Shown in pieces: positions 627-15,776 of a stretch of 53,421 nt of DNA. The stretch's first letter is position 1. Every line of letters starts with the position of its first letter. Below the pieces are notes generated by a model. The model saw nothing but the letters and a program-made list of their open reading frames with translations, ran no database searches and was not told the DNA's origin. Made by a program: the position numbers and the translations under genes. The stretch comes from a virus. The stretch spans positions 1-53,421 of IMG/VR virus record IMGVR_UViG_3300028666_000004. The stretch is one strand, 5' to 3'.

Positions 627-1244
627 TTAATCTCTTGTTACCCAAGTTGGATCTTGAATTACACATAAACATCTATCATCAGCAATAAATTGAACAGGTA
701 ATCCCCTGAAATTTACTTGCGTTCCTTCATTGCGCGGAATAACTATCCAATCCCCTACCTTGCACCATGGCTTAATAAATCGTTCACCTTTATAACAACC
801 ATCACCTTGACTCAAAACTAAAGCGGTACAGTTTGTATATTTGTCATGCACCGTTGCTGTTTGAGGAAGATATAATTTACCCGTTGTACCGTCTGATTTA
901 GTAAACTCAGCTATCTCATCAGGTCTGACATAGATTTTTACAGCCATGTGATAACCAGTCACTCTAGGCGCTTCAAAGCCAAGACTTGCTTCTACTAATC
1001 TCTTTGCTTCTGATTCTTCATAATCTTCTATATAACTCAATCTAAATTCATCAATTCTTTTACTTCCTTCCAAATCCACTTTTTCAGATTCAGATTCTAA
1101 TAACTCTAAATTTTTTCTCTTATGCTTCTCCTCAGCTTCCTTTTTCCATCTTTCCGCTTCAGCTTCTGCCGCTGCTCGTTCAGACCGCGTATCCTTATAA
1201 ATAATAGACTTATGTGGTTTGTTTCCATGCATGTCGTTCATCAT
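627..1244 (-). CDS. GroES-like co-chaperonin-type head assembly protein
   Basis: 205 residues. Residues ~15-90 are a charged helical or coiled-coil extension rich in Ala, Glu, Lys and Arg. Residues ~98-199 look like a GroES fold: a leading strand (MAVKIYVRP), a mobile-loop-like stretch (KSDGTTGKLYLPQTATVHDK), a central hydrophobic strand (TALVLSQGDG), the typical 'vGDwIviPrNEG' turn and a final 'RCLCVIQDP' strand. GroES-like proteins are known phage partners of host GroEL for capsid folding (T4 gp31), and the gene sits among head genes. The start is ATG at 1244 or 1241 after an AGGAGG site; it overlaps the upstream gene by 35 bases. A general structural OB/beta-barrel protein cannot be excluded. 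Confidence 0.5.
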   Translation of the reverse strand: MMNDMHGNKPHKSIIYKDTRSERAAAEAEAERWKKEAEEKHKRKNLELLESESEKVDLEGSKRIDEFRLSYIEDYEESEAKRLVEASLGFEAPRVTGYHMAVKIYVRPDEIAEFTKSDGTTGKLYLPQTATVHDKYTNCTALVLSQGDGCYKGERFIKPWCKVGDWIVIPRNEGTQVNFRGLPVQFIADDRCLCVIQDPTWVTRD

Positions 1245-2340: not shown

Positions 2341-4773
2341 TTACATACCTCTTGGATGTTGGTTTAGTTTTGCATCCGCTATAGTTAAATCAACGTCTGC
2401 CTTTGTTTCAGCTATAGCGCGCTGTGTTTCCATTTTTGCTTTTTCACTTTCAAACTTAAGCTGTGCTTTATGTGCTTCAGTCTGAGATTTAAGGACCACT
2501 TCTTCTTCCTTCATCCTTGCGGCCTCACGTTTCTGCCCTACATCTGCCATCATGGCTTGAGCAGGAGTTACCTGCTGCGATTGGTCTTCCAATGCTTTTT
2601 GCTGCTGCTCCATAGCTTTATGTGCATCTTCTTTTGCTATGGCATTCTGTACTTCTGGGATCATTAATAATTGCTGTGGCTGCATTTGCGTAAACATTTG
2701 CTGCATTTGAGGGTTTTGTGAAAACTCAGGCATATTCTTGACTACTCTCGTAGCTTTATGAGTTTGTACATGCATCATTGTTGACGCATATACTGCTGGA
2801 TTAATAGGGAACATCTGCATACCAAATGGCTCATGAACCATATTGTGTGCATCATCATCTTGTGGCCATGTAACCGTGACGGGCTGGCCTTGCATGAGAA
2901 GCATATTTTCAGAAATAGGATCTAAAGATTGAGGTTGAGGCTGCGGTTTTAATATCTTATCGATGTTTTCAACATTCATTGCTTGATAGTATTGACGCAA
3001 CACTTCATGCATATCATGCATTTCTGGATATGCAGTTGCCGATTTCACGAGAGTTTCTGCTTTCACCATTCGGTGAGCAGTAGTAAGTGTTCCAGGACTC
3101 GACACAGGCACGATATTAATATTATCAGCAAAGTCTGAACGCATTACTGCCGTTTCTTTACCCGGCACCATAAATGGATAGCCCTCTGGCGGTAAATGTT
3201 GGGCAAAAAGCTCTTTCATCAATTGCAATTCTTGCCCTAGCGCGAAATGAAGAGAGCGCAGAACTGTAGATTGAACTTTATCTGCCACTTCCAATAATGC
3301 CAACGTTGTTCCAACTGGCGCATTAGAGCTGTTCTCAGGGATAGCATTCTGAGAAGCATTAACAATATCCATTACTTCAGATTTAAGCTCGCTTCTAAGC
3401 TGCATCAACACTTGAGAAGGTTCGCTATAAGGCATTAACATTAAACATTCTTGAATTGGTCTGCCACCAGTATCTATTTCTAAGAACTCTGATGGGCCAA
3501 TTGCTCTATCATTATTTTCCGCCTTAACATCCCTCGTTCTAATTCCCCCAGGAAAATTCTTAAGCATTCCAGCATCAATTGTTTGACGCAAAATGCTAGT
3601 TAGAGCAATCGCATTAGTACCAGCAAGAGCAGCGTAACCGATACCGTAAATGCCAAACCCACGTAACATATAATAATTAATAAAGCTTTGTCGTCTTTTA
3701 AATTTCTGATCATTTTCTACCCAACCTCTCTTAATAGAAGCTATCTTATTATTGTCGGCGCACATAGTAATCACATAAGGACGCAACTCAACAACATCAT
3801 CCCCATCTTCACCCTTTTGTGGCTTGTGAATTCCTGGCTCTATATCAGAAGCATCTTTAATTACATGTATTTCATAGTATTCATAGATACTTTTCTTTTC
3901 CATCGATGCTTTATTAATACCGTCAATCTTATTAATGCTTTTCTTAATCTTAGACTTATCATCATCATCCGAGAAATTAGCATCAGGTAATGTATCGAGT
4001 ACAAATTCTCCCGATTTCTCTCTCCCTAATACATATCCTTCACTCCAATAACATCGCTGCGTCATTCTTTCTGATGACAGCAAACTTATAGTGTCAGGAT
4101 TAACAATAAAATCGAATGGCTTTACGAATCTACCAATAGGAAGGTTAGTTTCATCATTAATATAACATTTGCGAAATCCAGAGCCAAAAAACATCGTGTA
4201 CCACAATAATTGCTCTGAATCAGGATAATATTCTTTGTCTACTACAGTATAATAATAATTAGAAAATAACTTAACTCTTTCGCCCCTGTCCTCGATTTCA
4301 GCAGTTGGAATTCCGTTTATCTGCACCTTGCAAGGGCCCTCAGCGGGATACAGCTCTGCGCGCGCCACTGAAAATCCTCGTATGAGGGCTCCAAGAAGAG
4401 TCGTATCGAATGCTCCGCATGCATATAAAAACGGAGTCTTACGAAACTCTTCAATCTTTATTCCTAGATAGTTGAGAACCACATTATTTGTGTTTTCCCA
4501 CTCACTACGAGCCGCTATATCAGCGTCTATCTCTTCGCTTAACTCTATCCCTAAGGCCGTTAACTTCCCTTCATCCATATCGGCCGCAATATTACCGTAG
4601 AAATTAACATCTGACAGTAATTCTTCCCTTTCCTCTTCCATGTCCTGCGGCATCAACTCGAACATCCCGCTTCCATCGTCGAAGTCCGCAGTTTTGATAA
4701 TGGGACTTGTAGGAACTTCCGGAAACATCCCGAATCCAGACGTATTAAAGCCATCAGGCATATTTGTAGCCAA
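2341..4773 (-). CDS. Portal protein (podovirus type)
   Basis: 810 residues, in the range of P22-like portals (about 700-800). The N-terminal half has a portal-type wing and stem region, and the C-terminal ~90 residues form a long charged helix with Gln-rich flanks, like the barrel and crown helices of P22 gp1. The predicted role is a dodecameric DNA-entry vertex of the head. The start is TTG at 4773, 8 bases after a GGAG site; the first internal ATG (4761) is an alternative. It is the first gene of a minus-strand head operon and lies next to the putative origin. A piece of it (about 4432-4514) has a near copy beside TerL at 17188-17270. Confidence 0.8.
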   Translation of the reverse strand: MATNMPDGFNTSGFGMFPEVPTSPIIKTADFDDGSGMFELMPQDMEEEREELLSDVNFYGNIAADMDEGKLTALGIELSEEIDADIAARSEWENTNNVVLNYLGIKIEEFRKTPFLYACGAFDTTLLGALIRGFSVARAELYPAEGPCKVQINGIPTAEIEDRGERVKLFSNYYYTVVDKEYYPDSEQLLWYTMFFGSGFRKCYINDETNLPIGRFVKPFDFIVNPDTISLLSSERMTQRCYWSEGYVLGREKSGEFVLDTLPDANFSDDDDKSKIKKSINKIDGINKASMEKKSIYEYYEIHVIKDASDIEPGIHKPQKGEDGDDVVELRPYVITMCADNNKIASIKRGWVENDQKFKRRQSFINYYMLRGFGIYGIGYAALAGTNAIALTSILRQTIDAGMLKNFPGGIRTRDVKAENNDRAIGPSEFLEIDTGGRPIQECLMLMPYSEPSQVLMQLRSELKSEVMDIVNASQNAIPENSSNAPVGTTLALLEVADKVQSTVLRSLHFALGQELQLMKELFAQHLPPEGYPFMVPGKETAVMRSDFADNINIVPVSSPGTLTTAHRMVKAETLVKSATAYPEMHDMHEVLRQYYQAMNVENIDKILKPQPQPQSLDPISENMLLMQGQPVTVTWPQDDDAHNMVHEPFGMQMFPINPAVYASTMMHVQTHKATRVVKNMPEFSQNPQMQQMFTQMQPQQLLMIPEVQNAIAKEDAHKAMEQQQKALEDQSQQVTPAQAMMADVGQKREAARMKEEEVVLKSQTEAHKAQLKFESEKAKMETQRAIAETKADVDLTIADAKLNQHPRGM

Positions 4774-4810
4774 TCACAAGTCTCCTAAGCGAAGTATTAC
4801 CATCATAACA

Positions 4811-5013
4811 CCTTGTGAATATCTTGTGAATATCTTGTTCATAACTATATTTTATCTGTGGATAACTTTAATAATCATAAATTCTCATACTTATCCACAG
4901 GTTTATACACAAGATATCAACAGACTTATCAACAGACTTATCAACAGAATTTTAAGTTAGAATTACCATAGAAATCATCAAGCTATTTAAATAAACTAAA
5001 ATAGTTATCCACA
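4811..5013. other. Putative replication origin: DnaA-box cluster with iterons
   Basis: The non-coding 4774-5092 region is very AT-rich. Perfect TTATCCACA DnaA boxes lie at 4891-4899 (+), 5005-5013 (+) and 4857-4865 (-), with TTATACACA at 4903-4911. One-mismatch boxes (TTATCAACA) lie at 4926-4934 and 4938-4946, and TGTGAATAT, the reverse of a one-mismatch box, lies at 4814-4822 and 4825-4833. Three 12-bp tandem units (tatcaacagact and variant) run 4915-4950; three 11-bp units (cttgtgaatat and variant) run 4812-4844. This density in 200 bp matches bacterial oriC-type origins. It also separates divergent operons, so it may double as a regulatory region. Confidence 0.75.
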
Positions 5014-5092
5014 GGTTTTTTGGCATATAATAATAACAAGAGACTATATATCATAATATCATTATTATTAATGAGGTTTCTAGATAAAAAGC

Positions 5093-5121
5093 TTGACAAA
5101 TAATGTGTATATGGATATAAT
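5093..5121 (+). promoter_or_regulatory. Consensus sigma70 promoter of the early operon
   Basis: Perfect -35 TTGACA at 5093-5098 and perfect -10 TATAAT at 5116-5121, separated by exactly 17 bases. Transcription would begin near 5128 and read rightwards into the early genes from 5230. It lies directly downstream of the DnaA-box cluster, so initiation of transcription and replication could be linked. Confidence 0.9.
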
Positions 5122-5142
5122 TTTATTGAAATCGAAGATTAT

Positions 5143-5205
5143 GGCGTTTTTGGGTGGTTTTCTCCTTGTCCCTTTGGAGTTCACGCTCACGCATCCAAAA
5201 GCGCC
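5143..5205 (+). promoter_or_regulatory. Structured 5' leader of the early operon
   Basis: The ~100-base leader between the promoter and the first gene can fold. GGCGTTTTTGG (5143-5153) pairs with CCAAAAGCGCC (5195-5205), an 11-bp stem with one G-U pair. Inside it CTCC (5162-5165) can pair with GGAG (5176-5179). The ribosome site just downstream is an unusual run of G (5220-5226). The fold may act as a translational or antitermination control element; this is inference from pairing only. Confidence 0.4.
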
Positions 5206-5229
5206 TCCATTATCAAATTTGGGGGGTTT

Positions 5230-5628
5230 ATGATTGATTTAAAAGATATCCTGGCTATTGAGAAGCCTCCAGAGAAAGATAAGAAGAAAATAAAGGATGA
5301 ACGGAGAGCTAGAGCGATTAAAAAGTTTATTTCTCTAACTGATAAAGAGAGAGGAAAGTTATTCGGCTTAATTCAAGATAAGTTTAATCTTTACGAGCTT
5401 CATATGGGGGCTCATAAATTATACAAGAAGGACTTTGTTTATTCTTCCCATACTTTCTTGAAAAGTTACTTATTTGATTTGGCTATGGACATTTCTGATA
5501 GCATTAAGCAAGATTGGAATAGGCATGAGATGTCTGATTCATCTGCCGTAAAAGAGATCCCAGTAAAGCAGAACAAGGAAGTTATTAACGAGGCTAAGTT
5601 GGTAGAGAGGCGATTCAATGATTCGTAA
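5230..5628 (+). CDS. First early gene, hypothetical charged protein
   Basis: 132 residues, no family recognised. The N-terminal ~35 residues are extremely charged (PPEKDKKKIKDERRARAIKK), followed by a helical, aromatic-containing middle. ATG at 5230 follows a G-run that serves as ribosome site. It is the first gene after the consensus promoter, so it should be expressed early and strongly. It overlaps the next gene by 11 bases. Function unknown; a first-expressed small charged protein often targets a host or defence factor. Confidence 0.65.
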   Translation: MIDLKDILAIEKPPEKDKKKIKDERRARAIKKFISLTDKERGKLFGLIQDKFNLYELHMGAHKLYKKDFVYSSHTFLKSYLFDLAMDISDSIKQDWNRHEMSDSSAVKEIPVKQNKEVINEAKLVERRFNDS

Positions 5629-5887
5629 GTATGATGATAATGACATAGCATTAGTTGTAAATATGTTATGTTTTTTAGCATGTATGTGTTCAGAGTCTGG
5701 ATATTTTACAGTAATCCTTTCTGACATATGTCCTGAGTATATTTTAGAAAAAGCCAAGAGATATGGACTTCAATATGATTCTTCGTCTACATGCAAATTA
5801 TTTATATATAAATCATTAAGTGGTGTTCATCCGATTCTTCAAAAGCATATAGCAGATTTTTTAAATAAATGGGAAATAGAGATTTAG
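5618..5887 (+). CDS. Hypothetical early protein
   Basis: 89 residues, no family recognised. The N-terminal half contains several Cys (CFLACMCSESGYF) and the rest is mixed alpha/beta-like. It overlaps the previous gene by 11 bases, consistent with coupled translation in the early operon. No membrane or signal segment is clear. Confidence 0.55.
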   Translation: MIRKYDDNDIALVVNMLCFLACMCSESGYFTVILSDICPEYILEKAKRYGLQYDSSSTCKLFIYKSLSGVHPILQKHIADFLNKWEIEI

Positions 5888-5895
5888 GAGTTAAA

Positions 5896-6123
5896 ATGCA
5901 CGATGTTTATTTATTGATTGGTTTGGCGTTAGCTTTGGTTGCTAAATTATCACATACGATGTTTAAAGATACAGACGTAACGAAAAGAGATATTATTTTA
6001 CTTATGTCGTTGGTTGTAATGGCTGCATGCGTGATGATTCATATTGTTTGGAAAGCGCCCGAAACTGAGATTGCTGAAGAAGTAGTTGAAGAAGTTATTC
6101 GTACTGAATTGGAGGTTGGATGA
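5896..6123 (+). CDS. Small two-pass membrane protein
   Basis: 75 residues. The start at 5896 is chosen because TTAGGAG lies 6-7 bases upstream, unlike the upstream in-frame ATG at 5869. Two hydrophobic segments (about residues 4-18 and 32-52) flank a short charged loop with KDTDVTKRD, followed by an acidic tail rich in Glu and Val. The topology suits a small inner-membrane protein. Its early position argues against a holin; host-envelope modification or superinfection exclusion is possible. Confidence 0.6.
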   Translation: MHDVYLLIGLALALVAKLSHTMFKDTDVTKRDIILLMSLVVMAACVMIHIVWKAPETEIAEEVVEEVIRTELEVG

Positions 6124-6124
6124 T

Positions 6125-6316
6125 ATGGCTTTTAGCGTTAATGAGATGATGTCAAGGTTATCAATAATAAAGGATAAAGAGGAAGATATTTTAACTCAAG
6201 TTAATATCTTGCTTACAAATGAATCGGTTGATAAACGATGGGCGAATATTGGTATTACTCACTTACAGCAAGCTATTATGGCTATAACTATAAGCGTGCT
6301 ATGGGAGAGAATATAA
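6125..6316 (+). CDS. Small protein with Acb2/Tad1-hairpin-like C-terminus
   Basis: 63 residues; the start at 6125 follows GGAGG by 9 bases. An N-terminal helix is followed by a C-terminal pattern, [19 protein letters not shown] (residues ~37-55). This resembles the conserved 'aiAlThLqqAxMwa' helix of small phage proteins of the Acb2/Tad1 hairpin type. Acb2 forms a hexamer that sequesters cyclic oligonucleotides and blocks CBASS defence. The match is from memory of the motif, not a search. The protein is shorter than some Acb2 members but the right architecture, and it lies early in the operon where anti-defence genes are expected. Confidence 0.4.
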
Positions 6317-6495
6317 TGCCATTAGAACCTGGGAAATCTAGAAAAGTAATAGGCCGCAATATAGCAGAGATGGAAGAAGCTGGCCATCCTGCAAAGCAGG
6401 CTATAGCGGCATCATTGAATAATGCTAGGAAATATGGGACACATATCCCGAAGAAGTCTAGCAAGAGAAAGTTAAAACCCCTCAACATTATTTGA
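6316..6495 (+). CDS. Small conserved phage protein (basic, '[12 protein letters not shown]' type)
   Basis: 59 residues; the start at 6316 overlaps the previous stop as TAATG and follows GGGAGAG. The segment [20 protein letters not shown], followed by [10 protein letters not shown], matches a very common small phage protein family ('[26 protein letters not shown]'). The C-terminus is strongly basic (KKSSKRKLK). Function unknown; the composition suggests nucleic-acid binding. Confidence 0.6.
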
Positions 6496-6575
6496 GTAGG
6501 AATAATGACATGAGTAACTTTACTGGGCATTTTAATCGTTCTTATTTATAACAAAATTTGAAGAGCATGCAGCTT

Positions 6576-6607
6576 TAAATAAAGGAAATCGCTATTTCCT
6601 TTATTTA
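6576..6607. terminator. Perfect 14-bp hairpin, possible terminator or processing site
   Basis: TAAATAAAGGAAAT (6576-6589), loop CGCT, then its exact reverse complement (6594-6607). It lies in the 156-base gap between 6495 and 6652. There is no long U-run, so it may be a weak or bidirectional terminator, an RNA processing site or a stabilising structure. A 12-bp palindrome AAAGGATCCTTT follows at 6622-6633. Confidence 0.5.
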
Positions 6608-6651
6608 TGGTTTAGCTAAGTAAAGGATCCTTTCTCCATGAGAGTCAATAA

Positions 6652-6876
6652 GTGCATATACTTGCAATCATATTCATAATCCTGTATATTCTCTGGTTTA
6701 TAGGAAAGTACAAGGAAATCAAAGAAAAGCTTCAGGCTGAAGGGCTTGAAGAGTGCAATAAATATTGTAGATATGTAAAGGATAGATATTATGGGTGCGC
6801 GACATATGGTGGAATGGGAGATTTAGGGGGAATGGCGCGAGACTTTATGAATAGATATCGTAGGGAACAATGTTAA
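6652..6876 (+). CDS. Small N-terminally anchored membrane protein
   Basis: 74 residues with a GTG start at 6652. Residues 2-18 are strongly hydrophobic (single N-terminal membrane anchor), followed by a charged helix (KYKEIKEKLQAEG) and a Cys-containing C-terminal part with YGGMGDLGGMA. No family recognised. It follows a hairpin, so it may be a separately processed transcript unit. Confidence 0.5.
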   Translation: MHILAIIFIILYILWFIGKYKEIKEKLQAEGLEECNKYCRYVKDRYYGCATYGGMGDLGGMARDFMNRYRREQC

Positions 6877-6889
6877 TTAATGTAAGCGG

Positions 6890-6952
6890 TACTTTACGTA
6901 ATCCATTTTGAGTTAAGTAAAATAGACTATACTTTACGAAAATCCACTTTAG
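6890..6952 (+). repeat. Short imperfect direct repeat before 6963
   Basis: ACTTTACGTAATCCATTTTGAG (6890-6911; split here only as a description: ACTTTACG core) recurs as ACTTTACGAAAATCCACTTTAG at 6931-6952 with a few changes. The pair lies in the gap 6877-6962. It may be a tandem operator or a remnant of local duplication. A TATACT element at 6928-6933 could be a -10 box but has no convincing -35. Confidence 0.35.
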
Positions 6953-6962
6953 GAGGTAGAAG

Positions 6963-7172
6963 ATGATTGAAACAAGATTTATAGAATTTGCTGGATATCT
7001 AATAAATTTAGACCATGTGTATCAATTTGTAAAATGTCATAAAAGTAACTCTATTTTCATTTCTTCTGTTATTGGGATAAACCAATATAAGGAGCAATAT
7101 GAAAAAACAGAAACTATGCTTGATAGATGGGCGTATCTAAAATCGTTAATTTGTGCCCGGGGTAATGAGTAA
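6963..7172 (+). CDS. Hypothetical small protein
   Basis: 69 residues, no family recognised, with a good ribosome site (TAGGAGG) 6 bases before the start. The N-terminal part (FIEFAGYLINLDHVYQFVK) resembles small beta-sandwich proteins that begin 'iN.d.V..f' and carry no catalytic motif. Its stop overlaps the next gene's likely start. Confidence 0.55.
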   Translation: MIETRFIEFAGYLINLDHVYQFVKCHKSNSIFISSVIGINQYKEQYEKTETMLDRWAYLKSLICARGNE

Positions 7173-7437
7173 GGAGATAGGTGATGGTATTGCAATAATG
7201 AATATAGAACATCCAAGTAATGGAAAGATTTCTACTCGCGTTAAATTTAAGCATAAAAGGTTTGATAGGCGATTTGATGATATAGAATGTAATGAATGCG
7301 AGAGAAAGATTTCTGGTCGCATGATTCGAACTGGAAAATGTGATGAAGACTGGGCAGAGGAAAATTACAAAGTATATTGGCATAAAAAATGTCCCCCTGA
7401 GATTGTTTCGAGAATGCGAAAGGAGAGAGTAAAATGA
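7165..7437 (+). CDS. Small Cys/His-containing protein, possible zinc binding
   Basis: About 90 residues. The start is uncertain: ATG at 7165 overlaps the upstream stop, a GTG lies at 7153 and an ATG at 7198. It contains IECNECERKI (CxxC, residues ~40-43) and later C and HKKC, a possible four-ligand zinc knuckle in a basic protein. It ends 4 bases inside the start of the DUF6745-like gene, so it is probably co-translated. Function unknown. Confidence 0.55.
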   Translation: MSKEIGDGIAIMNIEHPSNGKISTRVKFKHKRFDRRFDDIECNECERKISGRMIRTGKCDEDWAEENYKVYWHKKCPPEIVSRMRKERVK

Positions 7438-8594
7438 TTGAAAGTTTAACTGAAGAACAGATAGCCAAGTTTCCAGAATACGTTAAGAAATGGACTGATA
7501 TAGGATTATGTACAGATCCAGCAAATAGGCCTGAAGCAGAAAAAGCAATTAATAAATGTTATGAGCTTGCAGGCTTAAAGCGGCCAGAAAAGATAGTTTG
7601 GTGTGGATCTCCTCTTTCACAAGGTCTAGTTAGATCAATTATTACAAATGAAAATATAATGAAAGAAATAGGATCTAAGATTTCAATAGGAGATTCCGTG
7701 AGGGAGTCCGTAAGACAGTCCGTAATGGATTCCGTAGTGGATCCCGTATGGAATTCCGTAGTGGATCCCGTATGGGATTCCGTAGGGGCTTCCGTATGGG
7801 ATTCCGTAAGGGCTTCCGTATGGAATTCCGTAGGGGCTTCCGTATGGGCTTCCGTAGGGGCTTCCGTATGGGATTCCGTAGGGGCTTCCGTAAGGGCTTC
7901 CGTAGGGGCTTCCGTAAGGGCTTCCGTAGGGGCTTCCGTAAGGGCTTCCGTAGGGGCTTCCGTATGGGCTTCATCCTACGGATCTCATGATGCTGACTTC
8001 TTATCATTTTATAGTTTTTTCAGGAATGAACTTAAATTAACCACTCAAACAGATAAAATTACAGGATTAACAGAATTGGCAAATCATTGTGGATGGATAT
8101 TACCACACGAAAATATTTGTTTTGCATCTGAACGTCATTGCATTCTCAATAGAGATGAGAGAGGCAGATTACATTCAATATCTGATCCAGCTATTATGTA
8201 TCCCGATGGATGGAAAATATATGCAATCCATGGCGTAAGAGTTCCTGAATATATAGTAACGAATCCTGAACAAATAACTATTGATAAAATAGATTCTGAG
8301 AAGAATGCAGAAATCCGAAGAATAATGATTGATATTTATGGTGCTAAAAATTATATTGAAAACTGTGGCGCTACATTAATACATAATGACAAATATGGTA
8401 AGCTATACAAGAAAGTAGTTGAAGACGATGAAGATATAGTTATGGTTAAAGTAATTAATTCAACATCAGAGCCTGATGGGACATTCAAGGAATATTACCT
8501 AAGGGTCCCACCTAATATTGAACGAGCACATCAAGCTGTTGCGTGGACCTTTGGGAAAACGGAAAAGACTTATAATCCATTGTTAGAAACTTAG
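7434..8594 (+). CDS. DUF6745-like protein with SVxx tetrapeptide repeats
   Basis: 386 residues in three parts. Residues 1-85 (MIESLTEEQIAKFPEYVKKW, then an AxKAINKCYELAGL-type helix and WCGSPLS) match the usual N-terminus of this family. Residues ~88-179 are 23 tandem units of (S/P)V-x-x with x mostly Gly-Ala, Arg-Ala or Trp-Asp. Residues ~205-386 carry the conserved core: GWILPHENICFASERH, RLHSISDPAI-YPDGWKIYAIHGVRVPE, then EPDG and VAWTFG. The family is known in bacteria and phages but has no established function. The gene just downstream is its usual neighbour. Recognition is from memory of the family pattern. Confidence 0.7.
   Translation: MIESLTEEQIAKFPEYVKKWTDIGLCTDPANRPEAEKAINKCYELAGLKRPEKIVWCGSPLSQGLVRSIITNENIMKEIGSKISIGDSVRESVRQSVMDSVVDPVWNSVVDPVWDSVGASVWDSVRASVWNSVGASVWASVGASVWDSVGASVRASVGASVRASVGASVRASVGASVWASSYGSHDADFLSFYSFFRNELKLTTQTDKITGLTELANHCGWILPHENICFASERHCILNRDERGRLHSISDPAIMYPDGWKIYAIHGVRVPEYIVTNPEQITIDKIDSEKNAEIRRIMIDIYGAKNYIENCGATLIHNDKYGKLYKKVVEDDEDIVMVKVINSTSEPDGTFKEYYLRVPPNIERAHQAVAWTFGKTEKTYNPLLET
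7695..7970 (+). repeat. 12-bp tandem repeat array, 23 units, inside the DUF6745-like gene
   Basis: Units of the form TCC GTA xGG GCT or GAT encode Ser-Val-x-x. Third-codon and x positions vary, but TCCGTA is kept nearly everywhere, and the last third is almost homogeneous (alternating GGG-GCT and AGG-GCT). No frame is stopped, so long spurious ORFs appear on both strands. An in-frame 12-bp array can change length by slippage without breaking the gene. Confidence 0.95.
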
Positions 8595-8604
8595 GAGAAC
8601 CAAT

Positions 8605-8925
8605 ATGTTTAAACAAGCCAGACAAGGTGATGTATTTATAGAAGAAGCATCTATCACTATAGATAATGATTTTGAGCAAATCCCAAAAGACGCAGGAAGA
8701 ATTATATTAGCTTATGGTGAGGCTACGGGACATGCGCATGCAATAAAAGATACATCTAGTCTTTACTTTAAAAACAAGAAGACAAGCAAGATATATTTAG
8801 TAGTAAACAATCCTACTGAAATTACGCATGAAGAGCATAAAGAGATACCCTTGAAACCATCTATTTATGAAGTTATCAGACAGGTTGAATATACTCCTGA
8901 AGAAATTAGGTATGTGGCGGATTAG
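8605..8925 (+). CDS. Small conserved partner of the DUF6745-like protein
   Basis: 106 residues, starting after TAGGAG. Conserved-looking motifs: RQGDVFIEEA near the N-terminus, LAYGEATGHAHAI (residues ~34-46), HEEHKEIPL and VIRQVEYTPEEIRYVAD at the end. This pattern is shared by small proteins commonly encoded next to DUF6745 genes in bacteria and phages. The GHAHAI and HEEH histidines could form a metal site. Function unknown; the 10-base gap to 8594 indicates one transcript. Confidence 0.65.
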   Translation: MFKQARQGDVFIEEASITIDNDFEQIPKDAGRIILAYGEATGHAHAIKDTSSLYFKNKKTSKIYLVVNNPTEITHEEHKEIPLKPSIYEVIRQVEYTPEEIRYVAD

Positions 8926-8929
8926 ATAA

Positions 8930-9115
8930 ATGAAATGTACCTGTTGTGGTAAATTTACAAAAGAATCCGAGTTGACGCAAAGAGCTGAATATAGTCAGAA
9001 TGGATATATTGACGTTTATCATATATGTGGAAAATGTTATGAAGAAAAATCAATTGATTGCCCAATCTGCGGGAAAGAAGTTTTACCCGGTGATAATCAT
9101 GGTCATTATTTATAA
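8930..9115 (+). CDS. Small zinc-ribbon protein
   Basis: 61 residues with three Cys pairs: MKCTCCGK, HICGKCYEE and DCPICGKEVLPG. The spacing fits one or two small zinc ribbons. No other domain is present. It follows the DUF6745 pair by 4 bases and may belong to that unit. Likely a nucleic-acid or protein-binding adaptor; exact role unknown. Confidence 0.6.
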   Translation: MKCTCCGKFTKESELTQRAEYSQNGYIDVYHICGKCYEEKSIDCPICGKEVLPGDNHGHYL

Positions 9116-9124
9116 GGATTAAAC

Positions 9125-9361
9125 ATGAAAAATACTGAAGCATATGATGATTGGATAAGCAAAGTTGATAGATTGCAGGAATTGTTATCTGAGTCTGCGC
9201 ATGCAATGAATGCATATATGTGCTCAAAGGACCCATCTAAAATTGTAATAGCTCCTAAAATCAATTATGCAGCAATTGAAAACATGAATAAGCGTTTCAA
9301 TGAAGCCAAGGAAGCTATTGAGTTCATCAAGAGTCGGGTATATTGCTATTTTCCGGATTAA
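9125..9361 (+). CDS. Hypothetical helical protein
   Basis: 78 residues, no family recognised, starting after AAGGATT. Two predicted helices (about 5-30 and 48-70) are joined by a Lys/Pro-containing linker. It ends 5 bases before the next gene. No motif allows a functional guess. Confidence 0.5.
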   Translation: MKNTEAYDDWISKVDRLQELLSESAHAMNAYMCSKDPSKIVIAPKINYAAIENMNKRFNEAKEAIEFIKSRVYCYFPD

Positions 9362-9366
9362 GAAGA

Positions 9367-9708
9367 ATGACTATTTATACTGGCAGCATTGGTGAACTTA
9401 TTGATAATATGAAAGCCTATGTATTTTTTTACAAAAGCAATTATATACCTAGCGATATAAGAAAGTTTCTCTCAATTGAATATGATATTGAGTTTGGAAC
9501 AGATTCATATTGCGTCTCATTAGTATACGAAAACAATGATGTTCGTAAGATACTAAGAACAATTAAGATAGGCAGATTTGACTTGATAAACGAAACAAAC
9601 GAAAACATGAGAAATACCATAATCGATATGCTTGAGTTATTGTTAACTGCTGTCTTTCCTAAGGATAAAAGACTTGAAGAGCATAGAAAACTGTTGGAGG
9701 ATAAATGA
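9367..9708 (+). CDS. Hypothetical early protein
   Basis: 113 residues; the start at 9367 follows AAGAAG, whereas an upstream in-frame start at 9343 lies inside the previous gene. The predicted fold is alpha/beta with a helical C-terminus. No family recognised. Its stop overlaps the ribosome-site region of the next gene (GGAGGATAAATGA). Confidence 0.5.
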   Translation: MTIYTGSIGELIDNMKAYVFFYKSNYIPSDIRKFLSIEYDIEFGTDSYCVSLVYENNDVRKILRTIKIGRFDLINETNENMRNTIIDMLELLLTAVFPKDKRLEEHRKLLEDK

Positions 9709-9709
9709 A

Positions 9710-9940
9710 ATGAAAGTTAAGACAACAATTGAATTAGATGGAAATACTGTTTGCCCAATAACAAATGAATCACACGAATTATATATTGGAATAGCTGATT
9801 TATTAAATAGATTTTATGGAAAGGCTGTTTCTCTTCCCCAGGATTGCACATTTGTTCTTAGATGGAAAAACTATGAAGATAATGACGCTCCATGGAAAGG
9901 AGCAAAGGAAATCAAAGAAGCGCATTTAATATTTGAGTAA
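9710..9940 (+). CDS. Hypothetical early protein
   Basis: 76 residues; the start at 9710 is preferred because GGAGG lies 11 bases upstream. It begins MKVKTTIELDGNTV and ends with an acidic helix. No family recognised. It lies 11 bases before the HD-domain gene and is probably on the same message. Confidence 0.5.
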   Translation: MKVKTTIELDGNTVCPITNESHELYIGIADLLNRFYGKAVSLPQDCTFVLRWKNYEDNDAPWKGAKEIKEAHLIFE

Positions 9941-9951
9941 GGAGATATAGA

Positions 9952-10545
9952 ATGAGTGAAATAACTATAGCTAAAGCTAAACTGCTTTCAAGAATAGCTC
10001 ATGATAGTATAGGGCAAAAGAGAAAATATACAGGAGAGCCCTATTATAGCCATCCATATGATGTTGTAATGATTCTTCATTATCATAAATTATATACATT
10101 TTACGATGAATTAATTGTTGCGGCATACTTACATGATATGCTTGAGGATGTAGAGCCTATTAATCCTTATTTTAACAAAGAATTAATTATAAATATATTT
10201 GGTATAGATCTTGGAAGGCAAGCAAGTGACACTGTTTATGAATTGACAACCGATAATAAAAGGTTTTCAGGTAATAGAGCTGAACGTCATATTAAAAAGT
10301 TAGAACACTATTCTAGTATATCGACGCATGCCTCACTAATCAAGCTTGCAGATATAATTGATAACTGTAGTAGCATCGTAAAGCATGATAAAGACTTTGC
10401 GAAAGTTTATATAAGGGAATGTTTAGAGATAGCAAAAGTTTTACAAGACAATATCGATATAACTAATATAGACCAGTCTGGACTTTATGATAGGTGTATG
10501 TTAACATTATATAAAGCTAAAGATGAGCTTGGATGGGAGATATAG
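9952..10545 (+). CDS. HD-domain (p)ppGpp hydrolase-like protein (Mesh1/SpoT type)
   Basis: 197 residues, about the length of Mesh1-type single-domain hydrolases, with no synthetase or regulatory domain. Residues expected of the family are present: the GQKRKYTGEPYYSHPYDVV signature (His34), AAYLHDMLEDVE (His61, Asp62, Glu65, Asp66) and SLIKLADIIDN (Asp134, Asn138). In Mesh1 and SpoT these bind manganese and hydrolyse the 3'-pyrophosphate of (p)ppGpp. The start follows AAGGAGATATAG. It could instead act on another nucleotide. Predicted effect: lowering the stringent-response signal during infection. Confidence 0.75.
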   Translation: MSEITIAKAKLLSRIAHDSIGQKRKYTGEPYYSHPYDVVMILHYHKLYTFYDELIVAAYLHDMLEDVEPINPYFNKELIINIFGIDLGRQASDTVYELTTDNKRFSGNRAERHIKKLEHYSSISTHASLIKLADIIDNCSSIVKHDKDFAKVYIRECLEIAKVLQDNIDITNIDQSGLYDRCMLTLYKAKDELGWEI

Positions 10546-10818
10546 ATGTGTTTTCTTGAATGTTACAAAAATTGGCGAAAAAAGAAGAGTGAAACTAAGA
10601 TACAAGAGGTGGCTGCTCAGCAGGCAGTAGAGAATAATGTAGAGAATCTTAAGGTTTCACTTGATAGAGCTCAATTGATTGAGCCTCTGCCAAAAGGTGG
10701 AGAAGTTCATGTAAGGATTAGGTATAACGAAGATAATCAATTTCATGACCCAAGAGGACAAATGGAGATGCAAGAGCCTGTTAGGGTTAAACATATTGTA
10801 AGATTTAATAATGCATGA
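10546..10818 (+). CDS. Hypothetical charged protein
   Basis: 90 residues, starting on the base after the HD gene's stop, with GGGAGATAT as ribosome site. The N-terminal ~50 residues are a charged helix (NWRKKKSETKIQEVAAQQ) and the remainder is beta-like with HVRIRYNED. No family recognised. Tight spacing implies coupled expression with the HD protein. Confidence 0.55.
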   Translation: MCFLECYKNWRKKKSETKIQEVAAQQAVENNVENLKVSLDRAQLIEPLPKGGEVHVRIRYNEDNQFHDPRGQMEMQEPVRVKHIVRFNNA

Positions 10819-10827
10819 GGGCTAAGC

Positions 10828-11088
10828 ATGAGATTCTGGATTATCTTATTTGTCGCACTAGTAGTTTTAAATCTGGTTGTAACTTTTTATAGCACATGTC
10901 ATGCAATGGAGTGTAAGGAAGTGACTATAGATAAGATTAGGGTTCTGAAAAAAAGTGAAGACCGCACATGGACTGGACCTCTTTTTGAAGAGCATTTTAA
11001 GATAGATGATGAATATGAAATAAAAGGGTATAGCTGTACAACAGGTAGAACCTGTAGCGTCTTGTTATGTAAGGAAGATAAGTTATGA
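10828..11088 (+). CDS. Small exported or membrane-anchored Cys-rich protein
   Basis: 86 residues. Residues 2-22 form a signal or anchor (FWIILFVALVVLNLVVTF) followed by STCHAMEC; cleavage after HA is possible. The mature part has further Cys (GYSCTTGRTCSVLLC), which could form disulphides in the periplasm. Export to the periplasm fits a Gram-negative host and could serve envelope protection or superinfection exclusion. No family recognised. Confidence 0.55.
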   Translation: MRFWIILFVALVVLNLVVTFYSTCHAMECKEVTIDKIRVLKKSEDRTWTGPLFEEHFKIDDEYEIKGYSCTTGRTCSVLLCKEDKL

Positions 11089-11420
11089 AAATAGTGCAGC
11101 ATGTTCCTGGATTTGTAAGTGGTCATACGCCATTTCAATTTGAATTTAATACGACGCAAGAATTGCTTAATCGTCCGGAAATTATAAAAATACAAGATAC
11201 AGGATCGATATGGATGAAATCAAAAGATGAAGATGAGATTATGTTAATGATAGAATACAATAATTCTCGAGCAGGTCAGGCAGAAGATGAAGGAGAGAGA
11301 ACATTTTATGTTATAGGATATATATCTGGAACTAAAGAAGAGCTGGAAACTATAGACTTACCTGAATTTGATTACAACAATCCAAAATATCATAACAAAC
11401 AAAATAAGGAAGATAAATAA
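11085..11420 (+). CDS. Hypothetical early protein
   Basis: 111 residues, overlapping the previous stop by ATGA. It begins MKIVQHVPGFVSGHTPFQFEFN, a beta-rich start, with an acidic Lys/Asn C-terminus. Short phage proteins with a similar HVPGFV..H.P..fefdtleeLL pattern are common but uncharacterised. No catalytic motif. Confidence 0.55.
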   Translation: MKIVQHVPGFVSGHTPFQFEFNTTQELLNRPEIIKIQDTGSIWMKSKDEDEIMLMIEYNNSRAGQAEDEGERTFYVIGYISGTKEELETIDLPEFDYNNPKYHNKQNKEDK

Positions 11421-11666
11421 ATGATAGTAGAATGTATTGCTTGGGGAGTTATTGCCTTAACATTTTTTAGCTCTCTTGTAATTATTGATGTTGCGCGCGC
11501 ATTAAATAATCTAAATAAAAAACTAGATGTCCTGAATATTTTGGACAAATTGGAGTGTATAGAAAAAGAAGCGAAGATGTGCAGGGCTAATTGTCATGAT
11601 ATACAAAGACAATTAGGAATTATATTGTCATTAGAGGAGGAATCAGAATGCAAGAGCAAAGATTAA
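11421..11666 (+). CDS. Small membrane protein with coiled-coil tail
   Basis: 81 residues. One N-terminal membrane segment (about residues 7-25) is followed by a coiled-coil-like region (LNNLNKKLDVLNILDKLECI) and a charged C-terminus. It starts right after the previous stop and overlaps the next gene by 19 bases. The topology suggests an inner-membrane anchored helical protein; function unknown. Confidence 0.5.
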   Translation: MIVECIAWGVIALTFFSSLVIIDVARALNNLNKKLDVLNILDKLECIEKEAKMCRANCHDIQRQLGIILSLEEESECKSKD

Positions 11667-12109
11667 CATTTAAAGATAGAAGTAGATACTCTAGAGGTCC
11701 ATGGGATGATGAGCCAGATAGAATCTATTGGGTAGATGATGAAACGAAATATCCATGTTTAATGAAGCGTAATAATAGCGGTGTATGGTGCGGCTATGTG
11801 GCGGTTAATGAATCACATCCATTATATGGTAAAGATTATAGCGGGCTAGATATAGAAATTCATAGAGGATTAACATATGCAGGGTATTGTGATGGGGATG
11901 CAGAAAAAGGTATATGTCATGTCAAGGATGATGGAGAAGATGAGGTGTATTGGTTTGGATTTGACTGTAATCATGGGTGCGATCTTACTCCGATGGAAGA
12001 TATGTACAGCAATTTCGGTGCAACATATCGTGATGAGGAATGGGTTAAGCGTGAAGTAAAGTATTTGGCTCATCAGCTTAAGTATAAGGGGGATGAAACT
12101 TCCAAATAG
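11648..12109 (+). CDS. Conserved phage protein of unknown function ('RGPWDDEPD' type)
   Basis: 153 residues; strong ribosome site GAGGAGG. The order RGPWDDEPDRIYWVD, WCGYVAVNESHPLYGKDY, HRGLTYAG, ICHV, WFGFDCNHGCDLTP and a C-terminal REVKYLAHQL matches a conserved protein seen in many phages and some bacterial genomes. Several conserved His, Cys and Asp suggest metal binding, but no function is established. Recognition is by pattern only. Confidence 0.65.
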   Translation: MQEQRLTFKDRSRYSRGPWDDEPDRIYWVDDETKYPCLMKRNNSGVWCGYVAVNESHPLYGKDYSGLDIEIHRGLTYAGYCDGDAEKGICHVKDDGEDEVYWFGFDCNHGCDLTPMEDMYSNFGATYRDEEWVKREVKYLAHQLKYKGDETSK

Positions 12110-12330
12110 ATTTAATTGGTGAAATATTTGACTTCGCGTTTAGCTGTAGTAGTTGGGTTGCTAGGTTATTGAATGCTAAAGCTGTGAGAATATGTTTTAT
12201 AATATGGAGTGTGTGCTCTTTATATTGGATATACAGGAATATATCGAATGAGTTATATTCACAAGCATTGTTTCAGGTTCCGACGATAGCGCTGAATATA
12301 TATGGCTATGTTAAATGGGGGAAGAGGTAA
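12097..12330 (+). pseudogene. Membrane-protein reading frame without a standard start codon
   Basis: An open frame of 77 codons ends at 12330, immediately before the next ATG. Its product would have two hydrophobic segments (residues ~26-45 RICFIIWSVCSLYWIY and ~58-70 FQVPTIALNIYGY) and end KWGKR, like a family of small two-pass phage membrane proteins. No ATG, GTG or TTG lies in the first 25 codons. An ATG at 12093, just after AAGGGGG, is in another frame and stops after nine codons. Possible explanations are a non-canonical start (ATA 12106 or ATT 12115), a frameshift, or a sequence error. It fills the 221-base gap between annotated genes. Confidence 0.5.
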
Positions 12331-12747
12331 ATGGGTCTTGATGTTAGCGTATCAGCAGTAATTGGTTATAAATTGAAAATAAGGGATATCTATGATAATA
12401 ATTTTATTGAAGATCAATCCAAAGATTATGCTTTATTTGTTCAAAATAATGAATATGAGACATTTTTAGCTGATTTTATAGACCACACTTCACTAATATA
12501 TCTAAATATTGTAGCTTCTATGGAAGATGGTTTTGATGATTTTGAAGACCATTTAATCTTATATTACGAAAGAAATCATAAGGGGATGGAATCAAGAGGG
12601 ATATTGGTAGGCTCAATGAAAGTTGATTTTTATACTGAAAAACAGATTGATAAGATTAAGGAAAAAATAAAAGGTATTTTGCTGCCAATTGGGATATGGA
12701 ATGAAGAAAATTTTGGTCTATGGGTAGCATCAAATGCGAGTTGGTAA
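12331..12747 (+). CDS. Hypothetical early protein
   Basis: 138 residues, starting right after the upstream frame with GGGGGAAGAGG as ribosome site. It begins MGLDVSVSAVIGYKLKI, an opening seen in small phage proteins of unknown role, and is acidic through the middle (MEDGFDDFEDH). No family assigned. Confidence 0.6.
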   Translation: MGLDVSVSAVIGYKLKIRDIYDNNFIEDQSKDYALFVQNNEYETFLADFIDHTSLIYLNIVASMEDGFDDFEDHLILYYERNHKGMESRGILVGSMKVDFYTEKQIDKIKEKIKGILLPIGIWNEENFGLWVASNASW

Positions 12748-12755
12748 GTAGAATA

Positions 12756-13019
12756 ATGATGAAGGTAACAGAAAGATACTCATTTTATTATGAGGATCCA
12801 TTAATCATCACTCAAAAATTATGGACGAAAGATGCTTCATTTCGGTGTTTACAAGATAATATGGAGATATTGAATGAATTACTTTCTTATAATATATTTA
12901 CAGACCCTTATCTTCCAGGCTTTTTAAACATGTTTATAGCTAAAAGGAAAAGATTAATTGCTGAAAGTATTCAGGATTTAAAGAGCTACGGAGAGAATAA
13001 AGGGTATAAGAAAACATGA
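12756..13019 (+). CDS. Hypothetical early protein
   Basis: 87 residues; ATG at 12756 is preferred over an in-frame ATG at 12720 that lies inside the previous gene. Aromatic-rich and mildly basic at the C-terminus. It overlaps the next start by ATGA. No family recognised. Confidence 0.45.
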   Translation: MMKVTERYSFYYEDPLIITQKLWTKDASFRCLQDNMEILNELLSYNIFTDPYLPGFLNMFIAKRKRLIAESIQDLKSYGENKGYKKT

Positions 13020-13312
13020 ATAATAATTGGCATGTTCTATATAAAACGAAATTAGATGAGATGACGGATGCATATCAAGCCGCAGTATCTACTATCAATA
13101 TGCTTCAAATGGAAATTAACAAGCTTAATAAGATTATCGATCGCCTCATTCGCGGTAACATGCTTCATGAGAAAAGTGAGCCTTGCCTTGAGTTTGGTAT
13201 TTATAGTATAAAGTTACCACAAGCAGAAAGAGAAGACTGGGTTAAAGTTAATGATATGGTTAAATCATTTAGAAAGATAATTGATGAAATAATTGAAAGC
13301 ACAGGAGGATAG
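13016..13312 (+). CDS. Hypothetical coiled-coil protein
   Basis: 98 residues. Residues ~10-45 form a likely coiled coil (AVSTINMLQMEINKLNKIID) and the C-terminal half is mixed. The start overlaps the upstream stop. No family recognised; a small oligomeric regulator or adaptor is possible. Confidence 0.5.
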   Translation: MNNNWHVLYKTKLDEMTDAYQAAVSTINMLQMEINKLNKIIDRLIRGNMLHEKSEPCLEFGIYSIKLPQAEREDWVKVNDMVKSFRKIIDEIIESTGG

Positions 13313-13313
13313 A

Positions 13314-13676
13314 ATGAGTTATGACATATATTTAAACGAGAAAGAAGAATCTATAGGATATAGCGGGACAAAATATCATGAGGTATTAAAGATGCCGCAT
13401 CTTCATTATGAAGGTGGAACTATAAACCTCTGCGGAGAAGAAAAATGCATATTGAATGTAACATACAATTACTGCAATCTATTTAGATTTAAATCATTAG
13501 ATGGAAAAGTGGCAAAAGATACATTGAAAGAAATGAAAGATTTTTGTGAAGAGCATAAAGGTGAACCAATTGATTTAGACTATTGGAAAAGCTGCCCAGG
13601 AAACGTTAGAAAAGCATTAGAGGTTTTGATAAGATTTTCTGAACAACATCCAGAAGGTATATGGGAGGTAATATGA
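13314..13676 (+). CDS. Conserved phage protein ('MSYDIYL' type)
   Basis: 120 residues; the start at 13314 follows GGAGGATAGA. It begins MSYDIYLNEKEE and has HYEGGTINLCGEEKCILNVT followed by YNYC, matching a widespread phage protein (SYDIyl.., then ggTY...G, then lNvTYNYs). Its function is not established. It overlaps the next gene by 4 bases (TAATGA). Confidence 0.65.
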   Translation: MSYDIYLNEKEESIGYSGTKYHEVLKMPHLHYEGGTINLCGEEKCILNVTYNYCNLFRFKSLDGKVAKDTLKEMKDFCEEHKGEPIDLDYWKSCPGNVRKALEVLIRFSEQHPEGIWEVI

Positions 13677-13843
13677 GGCTTAGAAAGAAAGATGCTAAAA
13701 TGATAATTGATGGTTTACATAAGCTTACTGGGGAATCGTTTGGGACTAGTAGTTCACCTTATGATGAGGAAAAGGTTGAAATGCTAATCGATGAGATAAA
13801 GGAGCGAGTCTTAACGCGTAAAGAGAAGGAAAAGAAAGAATGA
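13673..13843 (+). CDS. Small basic/acidic hypothetical protein
   Basis: 56 residues, with GGGAGGT as ribosome site. Mostly helical and highly charged, ending in a Lys/Arg/Glu tail (RVLTRKEKEKKE). Overlaps neighbours on both sides by a few bases. No family recognised. Confidence 0.5.
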   Translation: MRLRKKDAKMIIDGLHKLTGESFGTSSSPYDEEKVEMLIDEIKERVLTRKEKEKKE

Positions 13844-14451
13844 GTGATATAGCACGAGATTTAATGTGTGAATGGCTAGATGAGGCTAAACAAGAAGAGT
13901 ATAAGTTAGAGCCAATGAAAGCATATAATATTAAACCAGAATTGTTCCTGTATGATATTAAAGCTCCAAAGTATATGAGATATTATGTAGCTAATATGAA
14001 AGTACGTGGCAGCGAAATCTCTGCCAAAATAACTGAAAATCCAATGCATTTAGAAGATATTAACTACACTATAGAAGATCATTATAAGAGAGGATTAGTC
14101 CCATTATCGCCAAGGATGTATCCCTCAATGCCTGAGAAAGATGGATTAATAGAGAAAAGGGATATGGCGTTATTTGTATGTGCTAACAAAGAAGAGATTG
14201 GAGAGGTGCTGCATAAATATATTACTAAAGGGATAGAGAGATTTAAGAAAGAGGAGTACGACCCATTAAAAGAGAAACTAAGGAAAGCAGAAATGCTAAT
14301 AGCTAACTATGAGGATTTAGTTGATAAGCAAGATGAGCTTAATGATAGGTTAAACATGCTTAATCCAATTAAGAGAATTAAGGATGAAGGTATAAAAGTG
14401 GGAGATGAAGAAATATACTTCCCTTATGGTGAGGAAGGATGGCACGAATGA
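13840..14451 (+). CDS. Hypothetical protein with C-terminal coiled coil
   Basis: 203 residues. The N-terminal ~120 residues contain LSPRMYPSMPEKDG and hydrophobic strands. Residues ~135-185 form a long charged coiled coil (FKKEEYDPLKEKLRKAEMLI). No family recognised. ATGA overlaps join it to both neighbours, indicating one polycistronic message. Confidence 0.55.
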   Translation: MSDIARDLMCEWLDEAKQEEYKLEPMKAYNIKPELFLYDIKAPKYMRYYVANMKVRGSEISAKITENPMHLEDINYTIEDHYKRGLVPLSPRMYPSMPEKDGLIEKRDMALFVCANKEEIGEVLHKYITKGIERFKKEEYDPLKEKLRKAEMLIANYEDLVDKQDELNDRLNMLNPIKRIKDEGIKVGDEEIYFPYGEEGWHE

Positions 14452-14894
14452 ATTATCATGACAAAAAAGTACTTGAAATGGCACGTGATTTATTTAATTC
14501 CAGGATGAAAGAAGAGGGTATAGAAGGAGTTAAATTTACCACAAGCATGAGGGCCGGATATAGCATCGGAAGTGACTTTAGCTCTTCTGCACTTGTGAAA
14601 GAAGAAAATGAATTAATGGAGCGGTTTAAAGAGGTGCTAATTGAGGAAGAATCAGAAAGACGTAAAACACGTATGAATGAGGGAGAACAACAAGTGAAAG
14701 AAGGATGCAGCATTGACACTAAGACAGTAAAAGAAAAGATAAATGACTACTGTAATCATATGGACGCTCTTGGCCTCCAAGCAACTTTAGCAGGAATCCA
14801 TGGTTATCTTGGGTTAATGATAATGCAACATTTACTTTCAACTGATGATTACATAGAGGTAATTAATAGGTTAGAAAATGCTAACAAAAGTTGA
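14448..14894 (+). CDS. Hypothetical protein
   Basis: 148 residues; the start at 14448 follows GAGGAAGG by 9 bases, better spaced than the ATG at 14439. The central section is highly charged (EEESERRKTRMNEGEQQVKE) and the C-terminal part is helical with LGLQATLAGIHGYLGLM. It overlaps the next gene by 17 bases. No family recognised. Confidence 0.5.
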   Translation: MNYHDKKVLEMARDLFNSRMKEEGIEGVKFTTSMRAGYSIGSDFSSSALVKEENELMERFKEVLIEEESERRKTRMNEGEQQVKEGCSIDTKTVKEKINDYCNHMDALGLQATLAGIHGYLGLMIMQHLLSTDDYIEVINRLENANKS

Positions 14895-15240
14895 GTGGAT
14901 ACAGATTAAAGCGGCTATGGAGATATATGATTCGGCATTAGAGTTCGATTCAAATAAGTTCATGGATTTCCTTAAAACATATGTTGAAGTGGAAGAAGAG
15001 AAGATAAAATCTAATATGGATATTACGTATCCGATTATGACTCCTCCGCATGCTCCACCATTCGATTGGTCAAGTGTTCCTGAAGATTCTACAATTAAAG
15101 CTACAGAGAGAAGAAGTTATGGTCTTTTCGATTCGAAAAATGTGTCGATAGGGGCGCAAATGGATTCTACGTCAGAGGAATATAAGCAATATATGAAAGA
15201 CAGCAACCCGATTTACCCACAGAAGATAAGTGAGAAATGA
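14878..15240 (+). CDS. Hypothetical protein
   Basis: 120 residues, no family recognised. The N-terminal half is helical and acidic, and the second half is Pro/Ser-rich and probably disordered (TPPHAPPFDWSSVPEDS). It starts inside the preceding gene, suggesting coupling. No motif. Confidence 0.5.
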   Translation: MLTKVEWIQIKAAMEIYDSALEFDSNKFMDFLKTYVEVEEEKIKSNMDITYPIMTPPHAPPFDWSSVPEDSTIKATERRSYGLFDSKNVSIGAQMDSTSEEYKQYMKDSNPIYPQKISEK

Positions 15241-15241
15241 C

Positions 15242-15472
15242 ATGGATATAAAAAAGGTTATAAACTTAAGAGTAAAGCATGAGGTAAGATTAGACGATGA
15301 TACTCTGATAATGATTGTAACTTGGATTCTTGTAATGTTAAAATTATTGGATAAGACTCAAATATCATGGTGGATAGTTCTTGCTCCGTTTTTGGGTGGG
15401 CTAACGTGGGCTATTTTAAAAGAGGTAGTTGATAAAGAATTTGAATGGACATTTTGGAAGATGGATAAATAA
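15242..15472 (+). CDS. Small two-pass membrane protein
   Basis: 76 residues; ATG at 15242 (a GTG at 15230 is an alternative). Two membrane segments (about residues 25-40 and 46-64) are joined by DKTQISWW, resembling small phage membrane proteins of the pattern 'lvlKllg.i.wsWwwvl.P.w'. A Lys-rich C-terminus is probably cytoplasmic. Role unknown; holin-like behaviour is possible but its early operon position argues against it. Confidence 0.55.
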   Translation: MDIKKVINLRVKHEVRLDDDTLIMIVTWILVMLKLLDKTQISWWIVLAPFLGGLTWAILKEVVDKEFEWTFWKMDK

Positions 15473-15512
15473 TATGGGAATACGGCTATTTAAGACATCC
15501 AGGGGGTAATAT

Positions 15513-15776
15513 ATGATAATTCGATATCTAAGAAAGATTATATTCAATAAGCTTATAGATAGCCTTAAAAGAGATATAGATTTAAAGGATGAAATTTCCG
15601 TAGCTCTTATGCATATAATTAAGCATCTATTAACAAGGAATAATGGAGAAATAGAATATTTACTTGAATCAGATTTCAATTTTATACCCAATCATAGGAT
15701 TAGGATTCTATTAAGGCCATTTATCATGGCGACATGCGTAGGAATAAAAAAAGAAGCCGTTAAAGGTGACATATAA
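15513..15776 (+). CDS. Hypothetical protein
   Basis: 87 residues with AGGGGG upstream. Helical and basic at the start (MIIRYLRKIIFNKLIDSLKR). Similar openings occur in uncharacterised phage proteins, but no family can be assigned. It shares TAATG with the next gene. Confidence 0.5.
   Translation: MIIRYLRKIIFNKLIDSLKRDIDLKDEISVALMHIIKHLLTRNNGEIEYLLESDFNFIPNHRIRILLRPFIMATCVGIKKEAVKGDI

Follow-up and report, generated by a model that had tools for sequence, protein, structure and literature searches.

We propose, with a probability of roughly 0.6, that the intergenic gap at 4.8–5.1 kb in the genome of an uncultivated tailed phage is a host-DnaA-dependent replication origin, a compact oriC-like element that stands in place of a phage replisome. 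The window analysed here is the whole IMG/VR record IMGVR_UViG_3300028666_000004 (53,421 nucleotides), a lytic-type phage that begins and ends with the same 127 bases. An exact repeat of this kind is what a circle-closing assembler leaves, and the 53,294-bp unit is therefore probably the complete genome. No integrase or ParA was found in it. Its landmarks are the following.

627–1244, minus strand: GroES-like protein.
2341–4773, minus strand: portal protein (phrog_1216, 5e-17), the first gene left of the putative origin.
4774–5229: intergenic gap with the putative origin, 456 bp, 30% GC, flanked by the late (portal) and early operons, which diverge from it.
5230–5628, plus strand: first early ORF, 132 aa, with no convincing family.
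5230–15776, plus strand: early gene block of short ORFs, among which no replication enzyme was recognised.
17288–18922, minus strand: TerL.
28119–28811, minus strand: Erf-type single-strand annealing protein (phrog_155, 3e-27; PF04404, 4e-19).
50507–51409, minus strand: major head protein.

The phage also encodes tail-fibre proteins and an SU10-type adaptor. The DUF6745 protein encoded at 7434–8594 (1.6e-58) contains an insertion, a 24-bp tandem repeat at 7687–7972 of about 12 copies, each coding for an 8-residue unit (e.g. SVGASVRA). HTH and MarR-like regulators lie on the plus strand at 22160–22513 and 24220–24693, in a region that is otherwise mostly leftward. An outer-membrane beta-barrel or OmpA-like protein (25384–25959, 2e-14), to which known phages offer no relative, suggests that the host is Gram-negative.

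A scan of 4811–5013 for DnaA boxes identified six boxes with no more than one mismatch to TTATCCACA, all of them between 4857 and 5013. Three are perfect copies of TTATCCACA (4857–4865 on the minus strand, 4891–4899 and 5005–5013 on the plus strand), one is TTATACACA (4903–4911, plus) and two are TTATCAACA (4926–4934 and 4938–4946, plus). Four further boxes have two mismatches and start at 4814, 4825 and 4836 on the minus strand and at 4914 on the plus strand. A preliminary description of this DNA had listed the same three perfect boxes and the same TTATACACA, together with four one-mismatch boxes; the latter resolve into the two one-mismatch and four two-mismatch boxes given here, which makes six boxes at one mismatch or fewer and not eight. 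Its account of the surroundings as AT-rich non-coding DNA agrees with the gap between the divergent genes. It had also reported 11-bp and 12-bp tandem units, and these exist (11 bp at 4812–4838, 12 bp at 4915–4948), but not as separate short iterons. The 12-mer consists of a DnaA box and 3 additional bp, the 11-mer of the minus-strand weak box ATATTCACA and 2 additional bp, so that every repeat unit is a DnaA box in register, and iterons distinct from the boxes were rejected.

The boxes form two arrays that diverge from a 25-bp centre (4866–4890), with perfect boxes innermost.

4814–4865, minus strand: left array, read leftwards as a perfect box (4857–4865), TTATGAACA (4836–4844), ATATTCACA (4825–4833) and ATATTCACA (4814–4822).
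4891–4946, plus strand: right array, with TTATCCACA at 4891, TTATACACA at 4903, ATATCAACA at 4914 (two mismatches), TTATCAACA at 4926 and TTATCAACA at 4938.
5005–5013, plus strand: outer, detached perfect box TTATCCACA.

The three weak boxes of the left array are exactly 11 bp apart, i.e. a 9-mer followed by 2 bp, and three such boxes occur in 0.04% of the other 46-bp windows. Spacing in the right array is 12, 11, 12 and 12 bp. Ordered strong and weak boxes in opposite orientations, a property of oriC-type origins, are thus present in the gap.

The box density holds up against shuffled sequence. Among 20,000 shuffles of the gap none reached six boxes and none contained more than one perfect box, compared with three observed, while 400 dinucleotide-shuffled genomes gave at most three boxes per 165 bp and the counts for 300 permuted 9-mers never exceeded four. 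When chains were defined as head-to-tail boxes with up to two mismatches and 11–13 bp apart, the longest at the gap were five (plus strand) and three (minus strand), compared with two or fewer in the rest of the genome and never more than three in 60 block-shuffled genomes. The cluster is unique within the phage genome and its formation by chance is excluded. Slippage does create short tandem repeats, and 9-mers could by this or by chance build up in AT-rich DNA with no function; against the shuffling results, the organised spacing and orientation of the boxes and a motif at least five times commoner across viral contigs than its permuted control, such an explanation has a negligible probability.

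The DNA that adjoins the arrays has further features.

4927–5126, no strand: putative DNA-unwinding element; it overlaps the right array and is the genome's least stable stretch of 200 bp.
5093–5121, plus strand: perfect sigma-70 promoter TTGACA-N17-TATAAT (12 of 12 matches), reading into the early genes.
4802–4830, minus strand: promoter-like site TTCACA-N17-TATGAT with an extended -10 (TG) and 10 of 12 matches, reading into the portal operon.

Stability was predicted by nearest-neighbour calculation in sliding windows along the circularised genome, and the least stable 100 bp lie at about 5025–5124. A putative DNA-unwinding element of low predicted stability, as an oriC-type origin would have next to its boxes, is thus present, but a gap rich in promoters would be expected to have an unstable duplex as well. 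The right array abuts the perfect early promoter; the preliminary description had likewise placed the cluster beside an early promoter.

The -35 of the portal promoter-like site falls inside the left weak-box array, and this overlap, with the perfect early promoter beside the arrays, is what would be expected if DnaA only regulated the divergent early and late promoters. Alternatively, the boxes could titrate host DnaA as a datA-like decoy and so block host initiation, since each of many phage genomes in a cell would bring at least six boxes and together they might titrate it. Titration and regulation both leave unexplained how a genome with no recognisable replisome is copied and why the minimum of duplex stability lies next to the array, and we regard them as improbable.

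Other signals of the gap were less informative. A minimal DnaA-trio pattern follows the box at 5005 (spacer 13, three NTN) and the minus-strand box at 4857, but about half of the positions in the gap also reach three, and the trios are not above this background. No IHF consensus site with zero or one mismatch was found within 4774–5229; as such a site is not universal among oriCs, we do not take its absence as a defining failure. GATC is likewise absent from the gap, which is uninformative given an expectation of about 0.5 (59 in the genome), and the leader hairpin at 5143–5205 has a z of -1.5. The GC-skew switch looked for at 4.8–5.1 kb does appear, as a minimum of the cumulative skew at about 5.0 kb. 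However, plus- and minus-strand genes in the 16–29 kb region have an equal coding-strand skew (+0.159 and +0.158). The minimum thus follows gene orientation, which explains it, and it was dropped as independent evidence for an origin.

A genome with no helicase, primase or polymerase can be copied only by recruiting the host replisome. When ORFs of at least 80 aa were scanned with Pfam and PHROGs (some, mainly structural ones, with PHROGs only), Erf alone fell into the DNA-metabolism class, besides a DNA-ejection virion protein. Six-frame searches read through stops revealed no DnaB_C, DNA_pol_A, DNA_pol3_alpha, Helicase_C or Bac_DnaA match in the phage genome, so that a phage-coded DnaA was rejected, and a six-frame search with the CRP-901 primase-polymerase and helicase gave no homologues. 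In all, no polymerase, primase, replicative helicase, initiator or helicase-loader family was recognised.

Missing homologues are not missing function, and a novel initiator or helicase loader may hide among the orphan early proteins. The main rival to a host-DnaA origin is that one of these proteins is a phage initiator that escaped recognition; it would bind the 12-bp repeats as iterons and load host DnaB, with DnaA as a helper only, as in lambda and iteron plasmids. Many of the early proteins, indeed most, are orphans in the ORF scans, the 11/12-bp direct repeats are iteron-like, and the 132-aa ORF that adjoins the origin is the natural site for a hidden initiator; close relatives of this ORF were sought and none was found. 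Single-sequence structure models of two orphan early proteins, one of them the 132-aa ORF with a helical model, were uninformative (pLDDT 52 and 43), their confidence being too low to help this explanation. What argues against a phage initiator is that every repeat unit is an in-register DnaA box, that the gap has three perfect 9-mers, and that no initiator or helicase-loader family was detected. On balance we consider it unlikely. Origins of lambdoid phages and iteron plasmids resemble the present gap in having direct repeats beside an AT-rich stretch and transcription next to the origin; they differ in that the present repeats are themselves DnaA boxes, with no cognate initiator gene recognised.

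Relatives of the phage that share its portal family carry replication genes of their own. All seven of seven encode a helicase, and most also a polymerase or primase: Pol III alpha, an SNF2-type helicase, an AEP primase and UvrD in G045; Pol III alpha and an SNF2-type helicase in G049; Pol A, an AEP primase and a helicase in G041; a primase-helicase and a second helicase in G048; DnaB_C in G044; and a prim-pol and a helicase in CRP-901/902. At 80 portal loci of relatives (0.7 Mb) there were two boxes or fewer per 250 bp, and 12 related records contained no tandem box pair, compared with three in this phage genome. Thus, within the lineage, the array is present only in the genome that has no recognisable replication enzymes; this contrast is a single lineage comparison and not a statistical association.

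CRP-901/902 are roseophages of the CRP-901 type. The portal of the present phage is about 32% identical to their head-tail connector and TerL is 41–44% identical to theirs, the GroES-like and head proteins are related, and genome size is similar (53 kb). In contrast, CRP-901/902 have genes for a DNA helicase and a bifunctional primase-polymerase but no DnaA-box array. The bifunctional primase-polymerase and helicase are described as typical of the CRP-901-type group (PMC10149686). The early block with the putative origin (5230–15776) lies between TerL and portal in the present phage, and TerL and portal are adjacent in CRP-901/902.

Clusters of DnaA boxes are found in other viruses too. At least 120 IMG/VR viral stretches carry the triple-box pattern, compared with 24 for a permuted control of equal composition, and many of the matching clusters are arrays with an 11–13 bp spacing and up to 13 boxes. 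T5-like phages (Tequintavirus, Epseptimavirus) share the 21-bp motif TTATCAACAGACTTATCAACA letter for letter; it lies in their non-coding DNA, within the terminal repeat or close to it. The view that such box density is rare in lytic phages is contradicted by these phages and the IMG/VR stretches alike. Two array patterns searched in genome_contigs for an oriC-like host match gave nothing, and a DNA search of known phages and plasmids returned only short box matches. Five contigs share the 12-11-12 box register of the present array with no evident similarity outside the boxes. Their likeness therefore speaks for convergence or a shared constraint, and a homologous origin in other viruses was rejected.

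Several of the IMG/VR arrays deserve mention in their own right. Five contigs (L034, L040, L035, L109 and L126) have 11–13 DnaA boxes within 300 bp, mostly perfect, and are candidates for stronger oriC-like elements. A 38,244-bp contig (G034; array L101) has four perfect boxes exactly 11 bp apart at 20327–20368, and encodes Terminase_6C and an SU10-type portal with no DnaB_C or DNA_pol_A match. L223 and L224 are a near-identical non-coding array of several boxes, with TTATCCACAGG-type units, in two metagenome contigs.

T5-like phages encode a PolA and a DnaB-type helicase themselves, and more than one in three of the IMG/VR contigs with arrays that were searched had a DnaB_C match. Arrays alone are therefore no proof of DnaA-driven or host-only replication, and since T5-like phages bring a polymerase of their own, injection control, DnaA titration and promoter control are alternatives for the present array too. 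The T5 region at the end of the terminal repeat is described as containing repeats, palindromes and DnaA boxes, and such boxes have been considered to belong to a proposed injection stop signal (PMC13250531). By analogy, the present array could be a DNA-entry or terminal element and not an origin. The likeness consists of the identical 21-bp TTATCAACAGACTTATCAACA and the non-coding AT-rich setting in both; in a T7-like Shigella phage a weak match lies no more than 111 bp from the genome end, and on larger IMG/VR contigs 13 of 47 arrays are no farther than 1.5 kb from a contig end. In contrast to the T5-like phages with their own replisome, none was found in the present phage, whose map is circular; the genome-minimum duplex stability beside its array is what an origin would be expected to have. 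An entry element is accordingly a long shot.

We infer DnaA binding, melting, helicase loading and dependence on the host replisome to follow one another in the gap. Host DnaA would bind the strong boxes at 4857 (minus), 4891 (plus) and 5005 (plus), and would spread from them along the two divergent arrays of weaker boxes. It would then melt the adjoining AT-rich stretch (about 4947–5124), aided by transcription from the promoter at 5093–5121, and the opened DNA would be loaded with host DnaB helicase and Pol III. The phage would supply no helicase, primase, polymerase or initiator, and Erf would act later, in recombination that forms concatemers. In bacteria, opening the DNA and delivering DnaB is the task of DnaA, and an oriC-like array beside the weakest duplex of the genome is the simplest cis-element for recruiting the host replisome. 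The absence of recognisable replisome genes set against their presence in relatives, the least stable DNA beside the array and the two divergent arrays all favour the oriC-like reading. The preliminary proposal of an oriC-mimicking, host-DnaA-driven origin therefore stands as the best reading, while its arguments from skew and rarity fall away.

In E. coli oriC, strong boxes flank two oppositely oriented arrays with weak sites 2 bp apart (PMC6727663). The present gap likewise has strong 9-mers with arrays of weaker boxes, 2–3-bp gaps, opposite orientations and an AT-rich neighbour of low stability. It differs in lying on a phage genome, in its size of about 200–310 bp, and in having no dnaA, dnaN or gidA neighbour and no IHF consensus; moreover, the right array has a mostly 12-bp period, the strong boxes are innermost and the DnaA-trio signal is weak.

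A stronger version would have a lytic-type tailed phage of more than 50 kb discard its whole replisome and initiator, with the replication module swapped out and every round started only by host DnaA at an oriC mimic. We hold this tentatively, at somewhat below even odds. To our knowledge, initiation of tailed-phage replication by host DnaA alone has yet to be demonstrated, and a literature search returned no case of it, so that the strong version, if true, would be a notable surprise. Should the host-DnaA origin be real, the phage would have exchanged replication proteins for a copy of the host origin that acts in cis, and its replication would be tied to host initiation control, i.e. to DnaA availability and the cell cycle. 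It would also offer a very small natural DnaA origin for dissection. The recurrence of such arrays in viral contigs raises the wider question of why DnaA boxes accumulate in phages, whether or not these encode a replisome.
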